Assembly: GCF_026914265.1 (NCBI RefSeq)
Contig: NC_069134.1
Coordinates: 67,015,594 to 67,079,593 of the forward strand
Length of the DNA: 64,000 nt
DNA from: Mya arenaria
Taxonomy: Eukaryota > Mollusca > Bivalvia > Myida > Myidae
Direction of reading: 5' to 3'
Shown in pieces: positions 2,568-59,944 of the stretch; positions within the stretch are counted from its first letter, which is position 1; every line of letters starts with the position of its first letter. Under the pieces are notes generated by a model. The model was not told where the DNA came from. It ran no database searches and saw nothing but the letters and a program-made list of their open reading frames with translations. Made by a program: the position numbers and the translations under genes.

Positions 2568-4821
2568 GTCTCAAATTTTAAACGTTAAAATATAAGTTTA
2601 ATACGAATTTAGTTCATGTTGTTATTATATCTCATATAAAATAAGCGCGTTCACTATAGAAGATAGTGCTTTTCAACATCTACCTTTTTATCGTAGTACA
2701 TTCTTTGAGTGAATTTTACGCATAGATTATTGTTTATTATTATTTTCACGTACACAGTAATGAAACGTGTTTCAAAATACCGCAAATATGCGTCGTTGAC
2801 AAAAGCCAACCTCATTTATTATTTTTAATGGTTGTGGGAAGCGTCTACCCTTAACAAAAGCTCGCTTTATATGACGCGGTTATATTTAAGATAATTAAAC
2901 TCATTTATCGCGTATTTATTGCTATCAAATGACAAACTAGCCTTGTCAAAAAGGTCTCACAAAGGTGAACTAGTTGAAATACTGCGCTGTGAATTATCAT
3001 TGTGCTGACCCGATGATAAAAGTACACATTACGCTCTAATCATCTCCTTACCCATTTCTGACGACATGAGGATTGGAAGGTTATATCAACTTAGCAAAGT
3101 AGGTTATGTATTGAGTTAAATCTGCTTTAAAACAGCACTATTTACACATCAACTCCAATTCCTTAAATGAACTGCCTTTCGGCAATTGCGGTTATCATCT
3201 CAGATTGAAATAACTGTTGTTTTATAAATGGTAGTGTTTTTTTGAGTGTCTGTCGGCGTGTACATGATGTTTATTGCAATAACTTAAATTGGTATGTTAA
3301 TTAAACATGATTTGTATAAAATAATTATATTCAAAACATCAATATTGTGATGTCATTTGATAACATGATTTCGGTTACAGTCGGGTCGTTCTATTCACGG
3401 ACTGGGTAAGACAGGATTACTGAAAGGTTTTCTTAAATGAAATGAAGAATTTTTGTTAACAATTCCTGAACGCAGTAATCAACTATTGGTGTAAATAAAA
3501 TTAATGAATTGCGAGATTGATGTCATTATCGGTAATATGAACGCAATTGGGCTGCTTACAGCACGAATAGAGTCCGTCCAAACATTGTATTGACTCAGTT
3601 TCAATAGTATTCATTCACACTACTTTTTAAACTAATGTAAGGGTAGACCATGTATTTGTTGCGAGTTTATGTATAATTATGGAATACAACTGTTTAAAAC
3701 GTATCTAAGGGTAAAGCTAATACTAATAACGTATTTACCAAATCAGACATCTCATTTCGAATCGAGTGTCGTATTTCAGAATGTCATTCATGTGGAAAAA
3801 AAATCCTGACTCGACGATAATTATGTTTTCATTTTCGCGCGCATATTCATTAGTATTCTATTACATTTATTGAACAGTTTCGTTTTGGTATTCTTTGTTT
3901 GTTTTCTGAGGGTATTAACATGATGGAATGGCACAACTTGCCGACGTCATTAAAGTGAATTTAAAATCGTACCAGAAGTGGTTGTCTATTTTATAGCAAA
4001 ATAAATTTGTTTAAATGCGATAACGCGCTTTGTTTAGATGAACACCCGATATCATACGGTTTTCATAAAGCGCTGTCATTTTTAAAAATCAATCATGTTT
4101 AATACGTGAGATACTATAGGGCCGCGCTTTCAGGTATAGACTGTATTTGATAAGGGATTTATTCAACTCGTTAGTACTCGGTTCGAATCCATAATCTTTG
4201 ACGATTTTTTAAACAATTCCTCAGTTGACTTTTTTAAATTCTTTTAGTTCAATTCGATTCACACTTTGTTCGGTTATGCGTTTGCTAGCGTTGTTTTTTG
4301 GCAATCCATCCTCATTGTATATGCTAAATAAAAAAACAACAAAGGCAAACACCGTATTTTGTTCACTATTTATTCTTTTCTTTTAACTGTTTATATCAAA
4401 TGCATTTGTCTATAAACATCAGTTTGCTAGCATAAAAGCAACTCTGCACAGGTGAGACTTAGAAAATATAGCTTTATTCTCAATATTATAAGTCGAAGAA
4501 TACCGCGCAAGTACAAGTATTATACTAATAGCTGCTAACATAACATGCTATATCATTGGCGGCAAAATGTACATGCTATTTCATGTGTATTTGTTATAAT
4601 GCGATATATGCAACGTAAACCAAATATATGCAACATGATCAAAACGTTTACGCAGCATTCACATTTGGTAAAAGAACACACAGTCGTTTCAGATTGAAGT
4701 CACAACTTTAATCGAGTATAAATATATAATTATAGTCCTCTTGGCGCTTTTGCGAGAGAAAGTACTCGCAAATGTTCAAAGGGCAGCATAACATGAGTCG
4801 TATCAAAGTCACTCTGGACTT
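2568..4821. other. Core of the long-TIR element without a gene
   Basis: Apart from the dispersed repeat at 3150-3590, this AT-rich stretch has only short frames. No conserved domain, RNA gene or splice-bounded coding segment was found. Confidence 0.4.
3150..3590 (+). repeat. Dispersed palindromic-type repeat, copy 1
   Basis: This copy lies in the core of the inverted-repeat element and matches 59945-60525. Shared blocks include CCTTAAATGAACTGCCTTTC, ACTGAAAGGTTTTCTTAAAT and TTGATGTCATTATCGG in the same order. This copy lacks the perfect fold-back arm of the 60-kb copy and is more diverged. It is probably an older non-autonomous DNA element carried by the larger element. Confidence 0.7.
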
Positions 4822-54900: not shown

Positions 54901-55791
54901 TTCCCCCAGTTTTATGTTTTGAAAAAAAAAAAACTACTTTAAGTATTTTTGAGGTATTCTTAAAGATGCAAATTTAAATATCACATTATTGTATCATTTT
55001 TGTCTACTTTTTAAAGCAATCTTGTTCATGAAAACAAGAGGACCATGGTGGCCCTAAATTGCTCACCTGAGTAAAAGTGTATAACCTTTGTAATCAATAT
55101 AGCTTGATATTTGTTCTCAAACTGTACATAATATTATGATCCAAATTTCAGAACTGAAGCTTCAAAAATAAGAAAGGTCAACAAATTACAATAAAGGTAT
55201 TCCAAGCACAGCATTGATATTTGTTTTCTAAACTGTCTCAAATATTTTTTCTGCACCTTAAAAAAATGAGAGTAGGTCAAAAAGTCACAGTAAAGGTCAT
55301 CCGAGGACAATATTGATATTTGTTTTCAAAACTCTACACAACAGCCTACAGAACCAATGTCTCAATTTCCATCCAACACAACATGGCTTCCCATCTGTAA
55401 AGAAAGTTAAAGTCTTGTTTATATAAGGTGTATTAATTTTACTTAAACCATATAAAAGATAAGGTTGTAAATTACAATGGTCTACATGTTGTTCAATGGA
55501 AAACAATGATTATGAAATTCATCATTGGATAAAACTAAAAATAGACAATGCACTCTTCAACAGAAAGGGAGACCATATAGCAGGATTTGCTGGCTGCTTC
55601 AAAAGTAAACCTTACATAACTATCAATATTTTAACAAAATGTATTTATAGTGAACTTGTTACCCACAAGGTGGAACCAATTTGACACCAGGGGCATAATT
55701 TGTACAAAATTGACCTTACGCCATGGCTCGATAGGCCACGCCCCCAATAATCAGGGGAAGTTACTCTGCTTATGTCCGACACTGACCAAAG

Positions 55792-58559
55792 ATGGTGGAT
55801 AAACAAAGGCGTTTCGGTCTCCGGGATATTCCTGACAATATTAGCTTAGAATATGTAAAAGAACAAATATCGCTGAAGAAAAAACAGAAAGCTTCTGCTT
55901 TTTTATCCGGCAGCTACATTAGAGAAATACAAGTATTTGCGGGGAGTGAGAATTCGGTCATGATTCGAGGTGAAGTCCTTGCCATGTAGTCAATCTGGAA
56001 TTTGACACTTTGAAAAAAAGCAATACTAGACGCCCACTGCAAGTGTCAGCCAGGGTATGTATATTTTTTTTCATTAATCGTAAGTCTAATAAACAACTTA
56101 AAGACTAATAGAATATTCTCTTTTGAAACAAAGGACGCTGTACACTATGTGAAGATTAATATTAATTCTGTAAGTTTTATATCTGTTATTTACAGATACA
56201 ATTGTGTTATTACTTTAAAATTAACATGTTAACATTTCAGGAACAATGGAACATGTTCACATGTACTTGCTGTGATTTTGGCCTTAGAACAGATGAAGGT
56301 TCAGGGTTACAAAGAAATTCCATCAATGCTGACATGTACCAGCCTGCCGCAGCAGTGGGACAAACCGCGTGGGGAAAAAAATAACACAGAGCCTGTTTCC
56401 CAAATGGTCATGTCCCGACCAACAAATGTGAACAGAAAGCGACGCCCTGTCATGGCCCAATATGTAGACAACAGGTACAATAACAATTTGACAATGTTAT
56501 CGAAATTTAAACAGACTTTTTTTGAAAGATTTTATTTGCATTTAGAATATTTCAAATTCATACAATACAATAACATGTATAAGAACAAAATTGCATTCTT
56601 TACATTTAGGAAAATCACAGCTGAGAAGGATGATATCTCTGCTTTGAAGAAGTTGAAGTCAAGTTCGATATCATATCTCATAGAGGAAAACACACAAAAT
56701 ACGCCTAAAATCGACACATTATTTGGCCGCGTCCCTGTGGGTTCAGTCTTATCCTACCACGTAAGTATATGCACAAGATTGTTGGGGTGTACAACATTAT
56801 ATTTCACTGTTTTATCAAAAGATTCATAAAATTTGTTGCAAAACATGAAACAAACCATATTTGATCAATTGAACTAAAAGGCTTAAATCGAAGCGATGAC
56901 TTAATATTTTGTACGACTTGATTCTGGCTATCACTCACTCAACATGGACTCTATGTCGAGCTATTTTCTCAGTCAATCGAATGTCAGCTGAGCTCATCTG
57001 TGCACCACTTCGAGCAAAAGGGGGAATATTTAACTTTAAACCTAGTTTCTCTATTTGTTCTTGTATCCTGAACCCTTTATCAACCATGACGCCATCCCCC
57101 TCCAGAACTTTCCCCTCAGCTTTCAGGTTTTCTAAAGTAGCAAGAAAACCACTTTTTTCAGTTAAATCAGAATTAGAATTTGAGCCTTACGAAATAGAAA
57201 TTGAAATAGCATTGAAGCGAAAACTACTCCACCTCTTGGTTCAATGCCAACAAGCCCTTTGACAGTGTTACATGATTTGTAGTCAGAATAGCATTGGCTT
57301 TGTCTAGTCAGTGAACTAGGCCGTTGAATTTTATTTCTGTTCCATCAATAATAACTAACATATTTGGAAATTCTTTTCTATATCCTTCAGGCATCATTTT
57401 TAATATAATGTCACAATGAGGCCATATCTTAGCCGATGAACATCGTAAAAACATATACTAAATCCAGTTTTTAAACAATGCACTCGCGTCTTGTTGAGAA
57501 ATTAAATACAAATTCCCAATGTGTACAAAATCAAAGTTTTGTCTAGCGAAGTTTTGTCATGACCAGAAGCAGCTGATCTTCCATTGCAATATTCTTCTGG
57601 CAGCCAATATTTTTCATCATATGAAAGGGCAACTCTTGCACTCTTGGTGGTACTAAGAAATCAAGAATGATGAGAATTGTTGGCATGGGTCTTTCTCTGC
57701 TGCAACTTTTCATTTTCTAGAATCAATTTGGCCAAGTGTTGTTTCAGGCTCTCATTCTAAATGTAAGATGTAAATGTATGTAAAGGTAAGGTCAATGTTA
57801 TGTATTACAGGGGCCACTCCTTGAGCCACTAAACACACCCAGAGAGCAATGTTCCAGATGCGGGGAAATAAATTATCCGAAAGAACTGAAAGACAGTGAA
57901 GTCATTTTTGGAAAAACCTAAATACAGGATGCATTGCAGGGCAAGCAAATAAACTGGACAGATGTTGCCGTCTCACTTGATGATGCAGTTCTGATTGAAA
58001 ACACAACCCGAACGCAGAGTGATTCAAGAATCAATACGATGGCACAAAGAAAGGCATTAATGAATAACTGCTTCAAATTTTGGTGCAATAATGCAAAAGA
58101 CTGTCAATGAGTCATTCATGAAAAACACTTTCAATCGACCAAACCTGCAAACCAAGCCTACTTTCTATGGCCATGTTAATGAGAAAAATGCCCCCAAAAA
58201 TGTACATTAACAAAACAAATTCTCACTTGCACGATGTTGGCCTTATTGTTAACCCAGTCTTCCCATTTCTTGGTGCCAGCCCAGATGGCATCATTTGCAA
58301 AGATGGTGAAAGTGAAATTTTGGAGGTTAAGTGTCCATATTCAGCTAGAGACATGACAATTTCTGCAGCAGTCAGAGATTTGAAGGGCTTTTTCCTGATT
58401 GACGAGGGAGATACAATCCGGCTTAAACAAAATCATCAGCATTACTTTCAAGTGCAAGGTCAGCTCATGATTTCAGGGGCTGCTTTTTGTGACTTTGTTG
58501 TATATACCAGGCAAGACCTGTACGTAGAAAGAGTGGTCCCTGATAAAGATGTAAATTAA
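55792..58559 (+). pseudogene. SWIM zinc-finger / YqaJ-family nuclease gene of the transposon
   Basis: Exons are 55792-56054, 56241-56474, 56610-56760 and 57811-58559, with AG/GT borders in matching phase. The first intron splits a SWIM zinc finger (AHCKCQPG before it, GTCSHVLAVILALEQM after it). Exon 3 ends in DTLFGRVPVGSVLSYH. Exon 4 holds a CSRCGE knuckle, ITASNFGAIMQKT and the YqaJ/lambda-exonuclease core: GASPDGIICK (Asp), EILEVKCPYS (Glu-x-Lys) and HYFQVQGQLMISG (Gln). This fold is a 5'-3' exonuclease/recombinase type; its job in transposition is not established. Defects are stops before the SWIM half (55987, 56011), a stop in exon 4 (57917) and two frameshifts around 58050 and 58180. 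The nuclease core from 58167 to 58559 is uninterrupted. Confidence 0.85.
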
Positions 58560-59249
58560 TGATGATGATGCTGAAAAAGCTCCTGCTTTTTTATATTAAA
58601 CATTTCAAGCCATATCTATCTTTGCCAAACAAAGAAAATATAAAAACACAGCAGATGATTAAACATACCAGGATAGCCGTTGTAGGTTGGCTATCAACAA
58701 AGTGCTGAAGAAAAATATAGATACAAACTAAGTTGAAACAAGTGCAGACCAAAATTGTTCGCAGAAAAAATTAATTCCTACCAGTATCATGAACTGTCAA
58801 TGTTTATAACAGTTACCTCAGTCATTGGCTTGAGTCGAAAAAAGGGTGACCAGTATAATAAATGAGTTTTGTTTAGAATATTCAGGCTAGCTGTCATTGT
58901 ACAATTTATTAAATTAAAGGAAATGCATACTTCCTTGTTCCGGTTACGAACGACAACTGCATAAAAACGAATGTTGTGCCCTAATATAGTTGAAAAGGTT
59001 ACAGAACAGTAAAAAACTTATAGAATAAAATACCTTTGAATACCCGTAAACATGCTTAGCTGTCCCGTGATTTTTCAATTTTTCCAAATTCAGCTGATCA
59101 TTGGGACGCCCACATAATCGAAGCCATCTAATCCACTTTTCCAGGTTCCTGCCCAGTTTTGGAAATGGATAGAACTTTATATTGTTCTCAAGTCTTTTGA
59201 TGTATCTGCTGTCTGTGTTGCAGGTACCATAACTGCATCTTTTCACCAT
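56824..59249 (-). pseudogene. THAP-domain DDE_Tnp_4 transposase of the transposon
   Basis: Exon 1 (59034-59249) starts MVKRCSYGTCNTDSRYIKR, with FYPFPK and KWIRWLRLCGRPNDQLN. It is a THAP-type zinc-finger start, though the closing C-x2-H pair is not evident. After an intron, exon 2 (56824-57756) begins with a coiled coil (LKQHLAKLILENEKLQQ). It then gives a helical stretch (DFVHIGNLYLISQQDASALF), LVIIDGTEIKF (first Asp), YSDYKSCNTVKGLVGIEPRG, GDGVMVDKGFRIQEQIEKLG (second Asp), LNIPPFARSGAQ and KIARHRVHVE (Glu). The DDE residues survive, but at least six stops or frameshifts spread over exon 2 make it non-functional. Exon 2 lies entirely inside the third intron of the opposite-strand nuclease gene. 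Confidence 0.85.
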
Positions 59250-59944
59250 TTTTGCAGCGGAAAAAACATTGACGACTATTGACGGATATAACTTGTTTGT
59301 CGGAAAAATGGCAGATAGTAACAAAGCCGAAGAGGGCTTATCAGCGCGGCTATCTGATTGGTCAATTGACCCGTCAATGAAATTCCTTGCGTAAGGTCAA
59401 TTGGAAGACAACTACTACAATGTTACATCATACCAAATCTCTAAGCTCTAGGCCTCATGGCTTTTGTCAAGAAAAGTTTTGTAGTTTTTCCTTGTCATGG
59501 CAACCAGAGATCTCCATGGTATTCATTTATTTGAACAATTTTGAAAGAGCACCAACCCCAAACATTCCTGTAAAGTTTCATTAAGATTGTCCAAGTGGTT
59601 TAGGAGATGACATTTATAAGAAATTGTTGATGCTGGATGACAGATGCTGGACGGCAGACGCCGGACATAGACTGATTACAATAGCTCACCTTGAGGACTT
59701 TGTGCTCAGGTGGGCTAAAAAGGGCAATAACTCTGTTACTAGCTGAAATAGTTTTGGTTCAGACAAGAAAAAGTAACAAAGGGCGACTACTGTGTAATAA
59801 GCAAAAAAAAGTCATGATTCTTGTACAATGAACTCTCTACTTGTGATTCACCATTCAATTTTTTTTATAATATGCATCCAGATAATATCAAGTTGCACAG
59901 GGGGCAGAAAAAAATTTATTTTTGTTTATTAAGCCTATATGTAT

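Follow-up and report, generated by a model that had tools for sequence, protein, structure and literature searches.

A decayed ISL2EU-type transposon of Mya arenaria and its relatives, in which two opposed genes are predicted to enclose each other's last exon

Predicted arrangement of the two genes

The stretch of Mya arenaria DNA analyzed here, hereafter the window (64,000 nucleotides; assembly GCF_026914265.1, contig NC_069134.1, positions 67,015,594 to 67,079,593 of the forward strand), carries at positions 55711-59399 a decayed copy of an ISL2EU transposon. It probably comes from a group of elements with an apparently single origin, whose two four-exon genes are convergent and mutually nested. 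The transposase would have its last exon (helix-turn-helix, HTH, and DDE; minus strand) inside the last nuclease intron, and the nuclease would have its own (YqaJ; plus strand) inside the last transposase intron. These introns would overlap by only about 60-115 bp, with one 3′ splice site per strand placed back to back in this overlap, and each pre-mRNA would be transcribed through the catalytic exon of the other gene and then spliced around it. Read along the nuclease strand, the order is SWIM exons (forward), DDE exon (reverse), YqaJ exon (forward) and THAP exons (reverse). The parts of the window copy are as follows.

55709-55710, no strand: AT, left copy of the target-site duplication (AAT-element-ATT), from the flanks as read and the joined-flank search
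55711-55721, plus strand: left terminal inverted repeat, TGACCTTACGC, from end comparison
55792-56054, plus strand: nuclease exon 1 (N-terminus and first half of SWIM, C-x-C), with a stop near 55987
56241-56474, plus strand: nuclease exon 2 (second half of SWIM, C-x-H)
56610-56760, plus strand: nuclease exon 3
56761-57810, plus strand: nuclease intron 3, which houses the antisense DDE exon of the transposase
56824-57756, minus strand: transposase exon 4 (HTH and DDE), ends approximate
57811-58559, plus strand: nuclease exon 4 (YqaJ), with a stop near 57920 and a frameshift near 58110-58122
58677-58704, minus strand: remnant of transposase exon 2 (second part of THAP)
59034-59249, minus strand: transposase exon 1 (first part of THAP)
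59389-59399, minus strand: right terminal inverted repeat, from end comparison
59400-59401, no strand: AT, right copy of the target-site duplication, from the flanks as read and the joined-flank search

The window copy and its lesions

An initial annotation of this DNA had described a four-exon nuclease gene on the plus strand, and this was confirmed by GT/AG at all nuclease exon edges (55792-56054, 56241-56474, 56610-56760 and 57811 onwards) and by a Pfam match to YqaJ (E=6.1e-10). On the minus strand, Pfam matched DDE_Tnp_4 in two pieces (E=8.1e-11 and 1.1e-8) and THAP under the cut-off (E=0.0023). The exon positions also bear out that the DDE exon lies within nuclease intron 3. The transposase had been described with two exons, whereas comparison with longer copies gives four. 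Relative to loci L010, L011 and L014, the window copy lacks approximately 100 bp at element position 1971; L009 is without a gap at this position, where there was apparently a separate loss. Relative to L009 and L010, about 85-100 bp are missing near element position 2038-2048 and about 490-530 bp at position 2964. The former deletion removed the acceptor of the DDE exon, so that 57756/57757 is a deletion scar, and longer copies carry this acceptor further on (for example TTTTTCAG). The latter removed transposase exon 3 entirely and exon 2 for the most part, at about 58674-58677 in the window. The THAP and DDE exons do flank the YqaJ exon, as in the transposase intron that had been placed at 57757-59033, but the boundary of that intron is a deletion junction and the interval really spans the lost or reduced exons 2 and 3. 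Transposase exon 4 itself contains frameshifts, stops and two deletions (near 57681 and at 57748-57758). Both genes are broken by stops and frameshifts, and the window copy is dead.

Target site and insertion

The element carries 11-bp inverted repeats, TGACCTTACGC at both ends, and is flanked by AAT and ATT. The two window flanks were joined, with one AT removed, and used as an empty-site query against the same genome (1.216 Gb, 18 contigs). There were 40 scored matches, 37 of which crossed the junction, 16 of these being exactly 128 bp, the whole query; of the remaining three, two were the flanks of the window copy itself and one was the left flank of locus L020. Since clean empty sites are present in the same genome, the window element is a real insertion, with a true 2-bp AT duplication, into a dispersed repeat, and the 11-bp inverted ends with AT on both sides proposed previously were correct. 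L020 has its left flank in common with the window and is 97-99% identical to the window copy over the matched pieces, and it is thus most likely a duplicate of the same insertion. Flanks of the AAT...ATT form were found at most ends read in the window family, the exceptions being L017 (AAC) and the truncated L012, as well as in both L027 and L028, members of a diverged interlocked family. The inverted repeats are 14 bp long in L027, and their first bases are TG in both L027 and the window copy.

The interlocked order in other copies and families

The search for the window family gave 100 pieces among the matches listed, from which 18 loci were mapped. No other order or strand was seen in any of the 18, as far as each extends; several consist of only one to three pieces, and all parts without a missing exon block were present only in L009 and L010. 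The mutual nesting of the key exons noted in the window thus extends to relatives in the same genome. Copies with the two genes side by side were absent from these 18 loci but were found in other ISL2EU families of the same genome.

Protein searches of this genome, restricted to the best candidates, gave 146 YqaJ and 150 DDE matches, which merged to 137 and 149 places. Among the matches listed, 89 YqaJ places had a DDE place within 4 kb, on the opposite strand every time, while 48 YqaJ and 60 DDE places were without a partner. DDE lay downstream of YqaJ (side by side and convergent) in 76 of the 89 pairs and upstream (crossed) in 13, these figures being copy counts and not independent events. 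The 76 side-by-side pairs belong mainly to one abundant family; ten of the 13 crossed pairs are of the window family (window included), and the others are L027, L028 and L029.

Close reading of 20 loci identified seven as interlocked (L027, L028, L029, L038, L039, L041 and L042) and ten as side by side (L030-L037, L043 and L046), with too little left in three (L040, with YqaJ and THAP only, L044 and L045). All four blocks were present in L027, L028, L029, L038 and L039, and three of the four in L041 and L042, which had no THAP match; L038 and L039, with 99.9% identity across almost all of the retrieved sequence, were counted as one. YqaJ identity between the interlocked relatives and the window family is only 35-47% (43% in the comparison with the L027 family). 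The 96.4% identity of L027 and L028 is confined to the element, their flanks being unrelated, and therefore the interlocked form has transposed. These findings indicate that the interlock is real and older than the window copy.

Gene models, splice sites and selection

Splicing the L009 nuclease exons in silico (locus positions 582-868, 1054-1287, 1417-1567 and 2713 onwards) gave a 466-codon frame with one internal stop after residue 332, the last part of which probably deviates from the other copies through a frameshift. The L009 transposase exons (minus strand; 4720-4505, 4121-3955, 3713-3598 and 2600 downwards) gave 250 amino acids until the first stop, which falls in the DDE exon. The same eight exons were found in L027, where nuclease exon 2 is frameshifted and the DDE exon contains stops, and a small deletion was seen in transposase exon 3 of L010 and L011. 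Pfam matches in these relatives were THAP in spliced L009 (E=1.7e-8), HTH_Tnp_4 in L010 (E=2.9e-10), DDE_Tnp_4 in L028 (E=1.8e-45) and YqaJ in L027 (E=1.6e-13); SWIM stayed under the cut-off in spliced L009 (E=0.022) and reached it in the relative L043. D26, D110 and E157 are invariant in the DDE alignment of relatives, and D151, E164 and K166 are recognizable in the YqaJ alignment; we take both sets to be the catalytic residues.

Splice sites were scanned in 13 sequences at nine sites, and weak or unreadable sites in decayed or distant copies were not counted as support. Intron phases are equal in the window family and L027 (nuclease 2, 2, 0; transposase 0, 2, 1), and splice sites N1-N3, T1, T2 and T4 are at identical residue positions in both. 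The distance between the opposed acceptors is 62 bp in L027 and L028, against 100-114 bp in L009, L010, L014, L016 and L017.

Selection was compared between the window family and L027/L028 in five of the eight exons. Differences were concentrated at codon position 3 of the assigned frame in all five, on alternating strands; by codon position 1/2/3 they numbered 52/24/102 in the DDE exon, 105/69/149 in the YqaJ exon, 41/23/57 and 27/15/39 in nuclease exons 1 and 2, and 20/11/44 in the THAP exon.

Side-by-side families, trees and a possible origin

The side-by-side families of the same genome encode the same two enzymes in convergent genes, with the YqaJ and DDE blocks tail to tail (the matched ends overlap slightly in L043). 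The nuclease alignment comprised eight of the ten, L036 and L034 being left out, and in all eight, unlike in the interlocked nucleases, the reading frame runs open through the intron 2 and intron 3 positions. The intron 1 position was crossed by the span in seven of the eight; an intron may be present near the SWIM finger in three of those seven (L030, L033 and L035) and in L046, all of which begin close to this finger. In L043 and L031 the SWIM-like and YqaJ parts form one uninterrupted reading frame. Beyond this genome, no relatives were found in viral contigs, and phages yielded one distant transposase only. In plasmids, distant IS5-type transposases were found in 43 records, and three of these formed the outgroup; bacterial and archaeal genomes contributed five YqaJ relatives (L050-L054). 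One of these, L050 (JAAXGN010000095.1), a 3.6-kb contig in a Poribacteria bin, carries YqaJ and DDE side by side in long open frames, and may be sponge host DNA binned with the bacterium.

The DDE tree contained 25 rows (12 interlocked, 10 side by side and 3 bacterial; L038 was too short) and the YqaJ tree 21 rows (11 interlocked and 10 side by side; L019 and L021 were too short). The interlocked families formed one side of a branch in both, with support of 95/97 for DDE and 98/96 for YqaJ, and this grouping fits a single origin; finer branches within the group were partly without resolution or discordant between the trees. The initial annotation held that the interlock forces co-inheritance of the two genes. 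Three side-by-side groups, L031 with L043, L032 with L037, and the quartet L030/L033/L035/L046, recur in both trees, and the genes stay together without an interlock in 76 of the 89 pairs. Because side-by-side genes are also inherited together, forced co-inheritance as proposed is unsupported, and the interlock is not needed to explain co-inheritance.

The crossed form would most likely have arisen once, from the ordinary side-by-side convergent form. A single inversion cannot yield the crossed order with both strands kept. A possible route would start from a tandem dimer with its units head to tail; if the first YqaJ, the second DDE and the THAP and SWIM parts in the middle were then lost, the crossed order would result. 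The crossed form could then have persisted because reversal would need several simultaneous changes. No intermediate of this route turned up, and no direct search for one was made.

The abundant side-by-side family represented by L030 (G000 C13:9135000-9143500) is ISL2EU-like and occupies dozens of places with the same score and frame length (394 and 357 amino acids), suggestive of a recent burst. In L030 the end repeats span 6,481 bp and are consistent with AAT...ATT flanks. Two apparent head-to-tail tandem pairs of this family were seen, at C2 47.867/47.874 Mb (47867289 and 47873771) and at C7 41.380/41.387 Mb (41380337 and 41386819). In both, the YqaJ/DDE matches repeat at 6,482 bp, close to the span of L030, and such pairs are a possible model for an intermediate toward the interlocked element. 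At the C-terminus of a further side-by-side nuclease, that of L032, lies a PHD-like zinc finger (PF23011, 0.00044, under the cut-off), and a similar Cys-rich tail is present in L037 in the alignment.

Evidence against the interlocked gene models and alternative explanations

Several observations weigh against the interpretation of two mutually nested genes with a single, derived origin. All families compared come from one genome, and all closely read interlocked copies (the window copy, L009, L010, L027 and L028) are damaged. Between L027 and L028 there was no purifying selection, with ratios of nonsynonymous to synonymous substitution rates (dN/dS) of 0.60, 0.70, 0.86 and 1.99, and one undefined, on few changes; this is as expected for copies decaying after insertion. 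The N3 donor is lost in L028, and AG is gone at N3a in L010 and at T4a in L015. Several sites in L029, L039, L041 and L042 were weak or could not be read; of the sites read in these loci, two or three have no GT, which is missing at some sites of L029 and L039. The order, conserved splice sites, frames, grouping in both trees and transposition of interlocked copies are observed, and splicing in vivo, the route and direction of origin, and the reason for persistence are inferred. In L036, which is side by side, the SWIM match lies outside the YqaJ frame, with a probable intron between them, and an intron between SWIM and YqaJ is therefore not unique to the interlocked group. Finally, the DDE tree has no root other than three distant bacterial sequences, and the side-by-side families likewise form a branch side (54/72), so that the direction of change is not firmly established.

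This last result would also suit the reverse history, in which the interlocked form is ancestral and the side-by-side form derived, and in the YqaJ tree the two groups are likewise the two sides of one branch. We consider this history unlikely, since the side-by-side form is also found in L050, a contig of other source, since the eight aligned side-by-side nucleases are open across the intron 2 and 3 positions (although L036, outside the alignment, appears to have an intron in this region), and since rooting with the bacterial outgroup gives stronger support to the interlocked group as a single clade.

Less probable again is that the blocks represent four separate small genes on alternating strands, with the DDE and YqaJ exons expressed alone, without THAP and SWIM. 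The YqaJ and DDE exons do contain long open stretches of their own (267 amino acids in L027 and L028, and 225 in L028), and the joining of exons is predicted. However, the intron sites fall at the same residues and in the same phases in two families whose YqaJ domains are 43% identical, the joined exons stay in frame, SWIM-like and YqaJ parts share one frame in L043 and L031, and THAP and DDE belong to one transposase in ISL2EU, according to the main-text portion of Han et al. 2015 (PMC4482050).

We rejected as scarcely credible a nested or composite insertion in which the interlock is an accident of the window copy: although transposons often nest and this copy is degraded, it has one pair of ends, one AT duplication and clean empty sites, no other order occurs in the 18 mapped loci as far as each extends, and diverged families share the order, two of their copies with their own ends.

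Relation to known systems

The initial annotation had assigned the element to the ISL2EU type with a YqaJ nuclease, and this assignment stands. In the main-text portion of PMC4482050 (Han et al. 2015), ISL2EU elements, of the PHIS superfamily, have an AT duplication in A-AT-T, a THAP/HTH/DDE transposase and a YqaJ second gene, all of which are found here, together with short ends; the length also agrees, at about 4.4-5.6 kb in the longer copies. Terminal inverted repeats of ISL2EU are given there as 6-259 bp, a range that includes the 11 bp of the window copy and the 14 bp of L027, and as usually starting with GG, whereas the ends described here start with TG. The same portion of text describes two open reading frames and is silent on strands, introns and mutual nesting. 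Judging from these families, the THAP/HTH/DDE protein would bind the ends and move the element into AATT, duplicating AT, and the SWIM/YqaJ nuclease would have a putative role as an accessory DNA-processing protein.

PIF/Harbinger elements have a related DDE_Tnp_4 transposase but differ in their 3-bp TWA duplication and Myb/SANT partner gene (PMC4482050, main-text portion), in place of the AT duplication and SWIM/YqaJ second gene found here; there was no Pfam match to Myb in the scanned stretches of the window and its relatives. Spy, which has no target-site duplication and only a transposase, is excluded by the AT duplication and the second gene. Among antisense host gene pairs sharing exons or introns, Pou5f1/Tcf19 resembles the present arrangement in having spliced genes on opposite strands with overlapping introns (PMC8493703, in the part consulted). 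In contrast, it is described there as a host pair sharing exons in splice variants, and not a transposon with terminal exons in each other's last intron.

In searches of an open-access library, no listed paper describes a transposon with mutually nested exons in its title or abstract opening; Repbase Reports, which may show such maps, were not covered. The parts consulted of PMC4482050, PMC9179366, PMC12730594, PMC10225492 and PMC8493703 likewise describe no mutual nesting in a transposon. An ISL2EU element with this gene pair is already known, and these comparisons suggest that the mutual nesting is a new feature.

Possible control, implications and short derivatives

The initial annotation had suggested that antisense control of the two products might follow from the interlock. 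The interlock could be a maintained control device: as each transcript would have to traverse the antisense of the other gene's catalytic exon, convergent transcription or double-stranded RNA would couple the output of transposase and nuclease. We regard this putative role as rather doubtful. If true, it would be a built-in self-limiter carried by a whole transposon clade. There is no overlap between the coding exons of one mature mRNA and those of the other, and any pairing would thus be between an exon and an unspliced intron, or between 3′ ends. Polyadenylation signals in the overlapping introns showed no clear pattern, nuclease intron 3 having none on the sense strand in L010 and two in L027.

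The findings indicate that a mobile element can swap the order of the terminal exons of two genes, with splicing absorbing the change, and that the interlocked form stayed mobile long enough for its nucleases to diverge to 35-47% identity. The change is a countable one in architecture, apparently of single origin, and the unchanged form is abundant in the same genome as a natural control. RNA-seq and small-RNA data could therefore test directly whether the two interlocked genes regulate each other or are simply tolerated. Genes interlocked in this way may also escape gene finders or be merged by them.

Shorter copies exist of both the L027 family and the window family. Among the 40 scored of 8741 candidates, approximately 30 were shorter derivatives of the L027 family with both ends kept (for example C10:33314759-33317762), many retaining pieces of nuclease exons 1-2 and transposase exons 1-3 without the two catalytic exons. 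By hand count, about 110 of 150 scored THAP matches start at THAP residue 18 or later, without the first Cys pair. The derivatives are thus poor coders of THAP, and the idea of a KP-like repressor role for them was dropped. In the window family, more than 10 internally deleted derivatives with element positions 1-540 and 3464-3689 were found on many contigs, that in L022 being approximately 1.4 kb.

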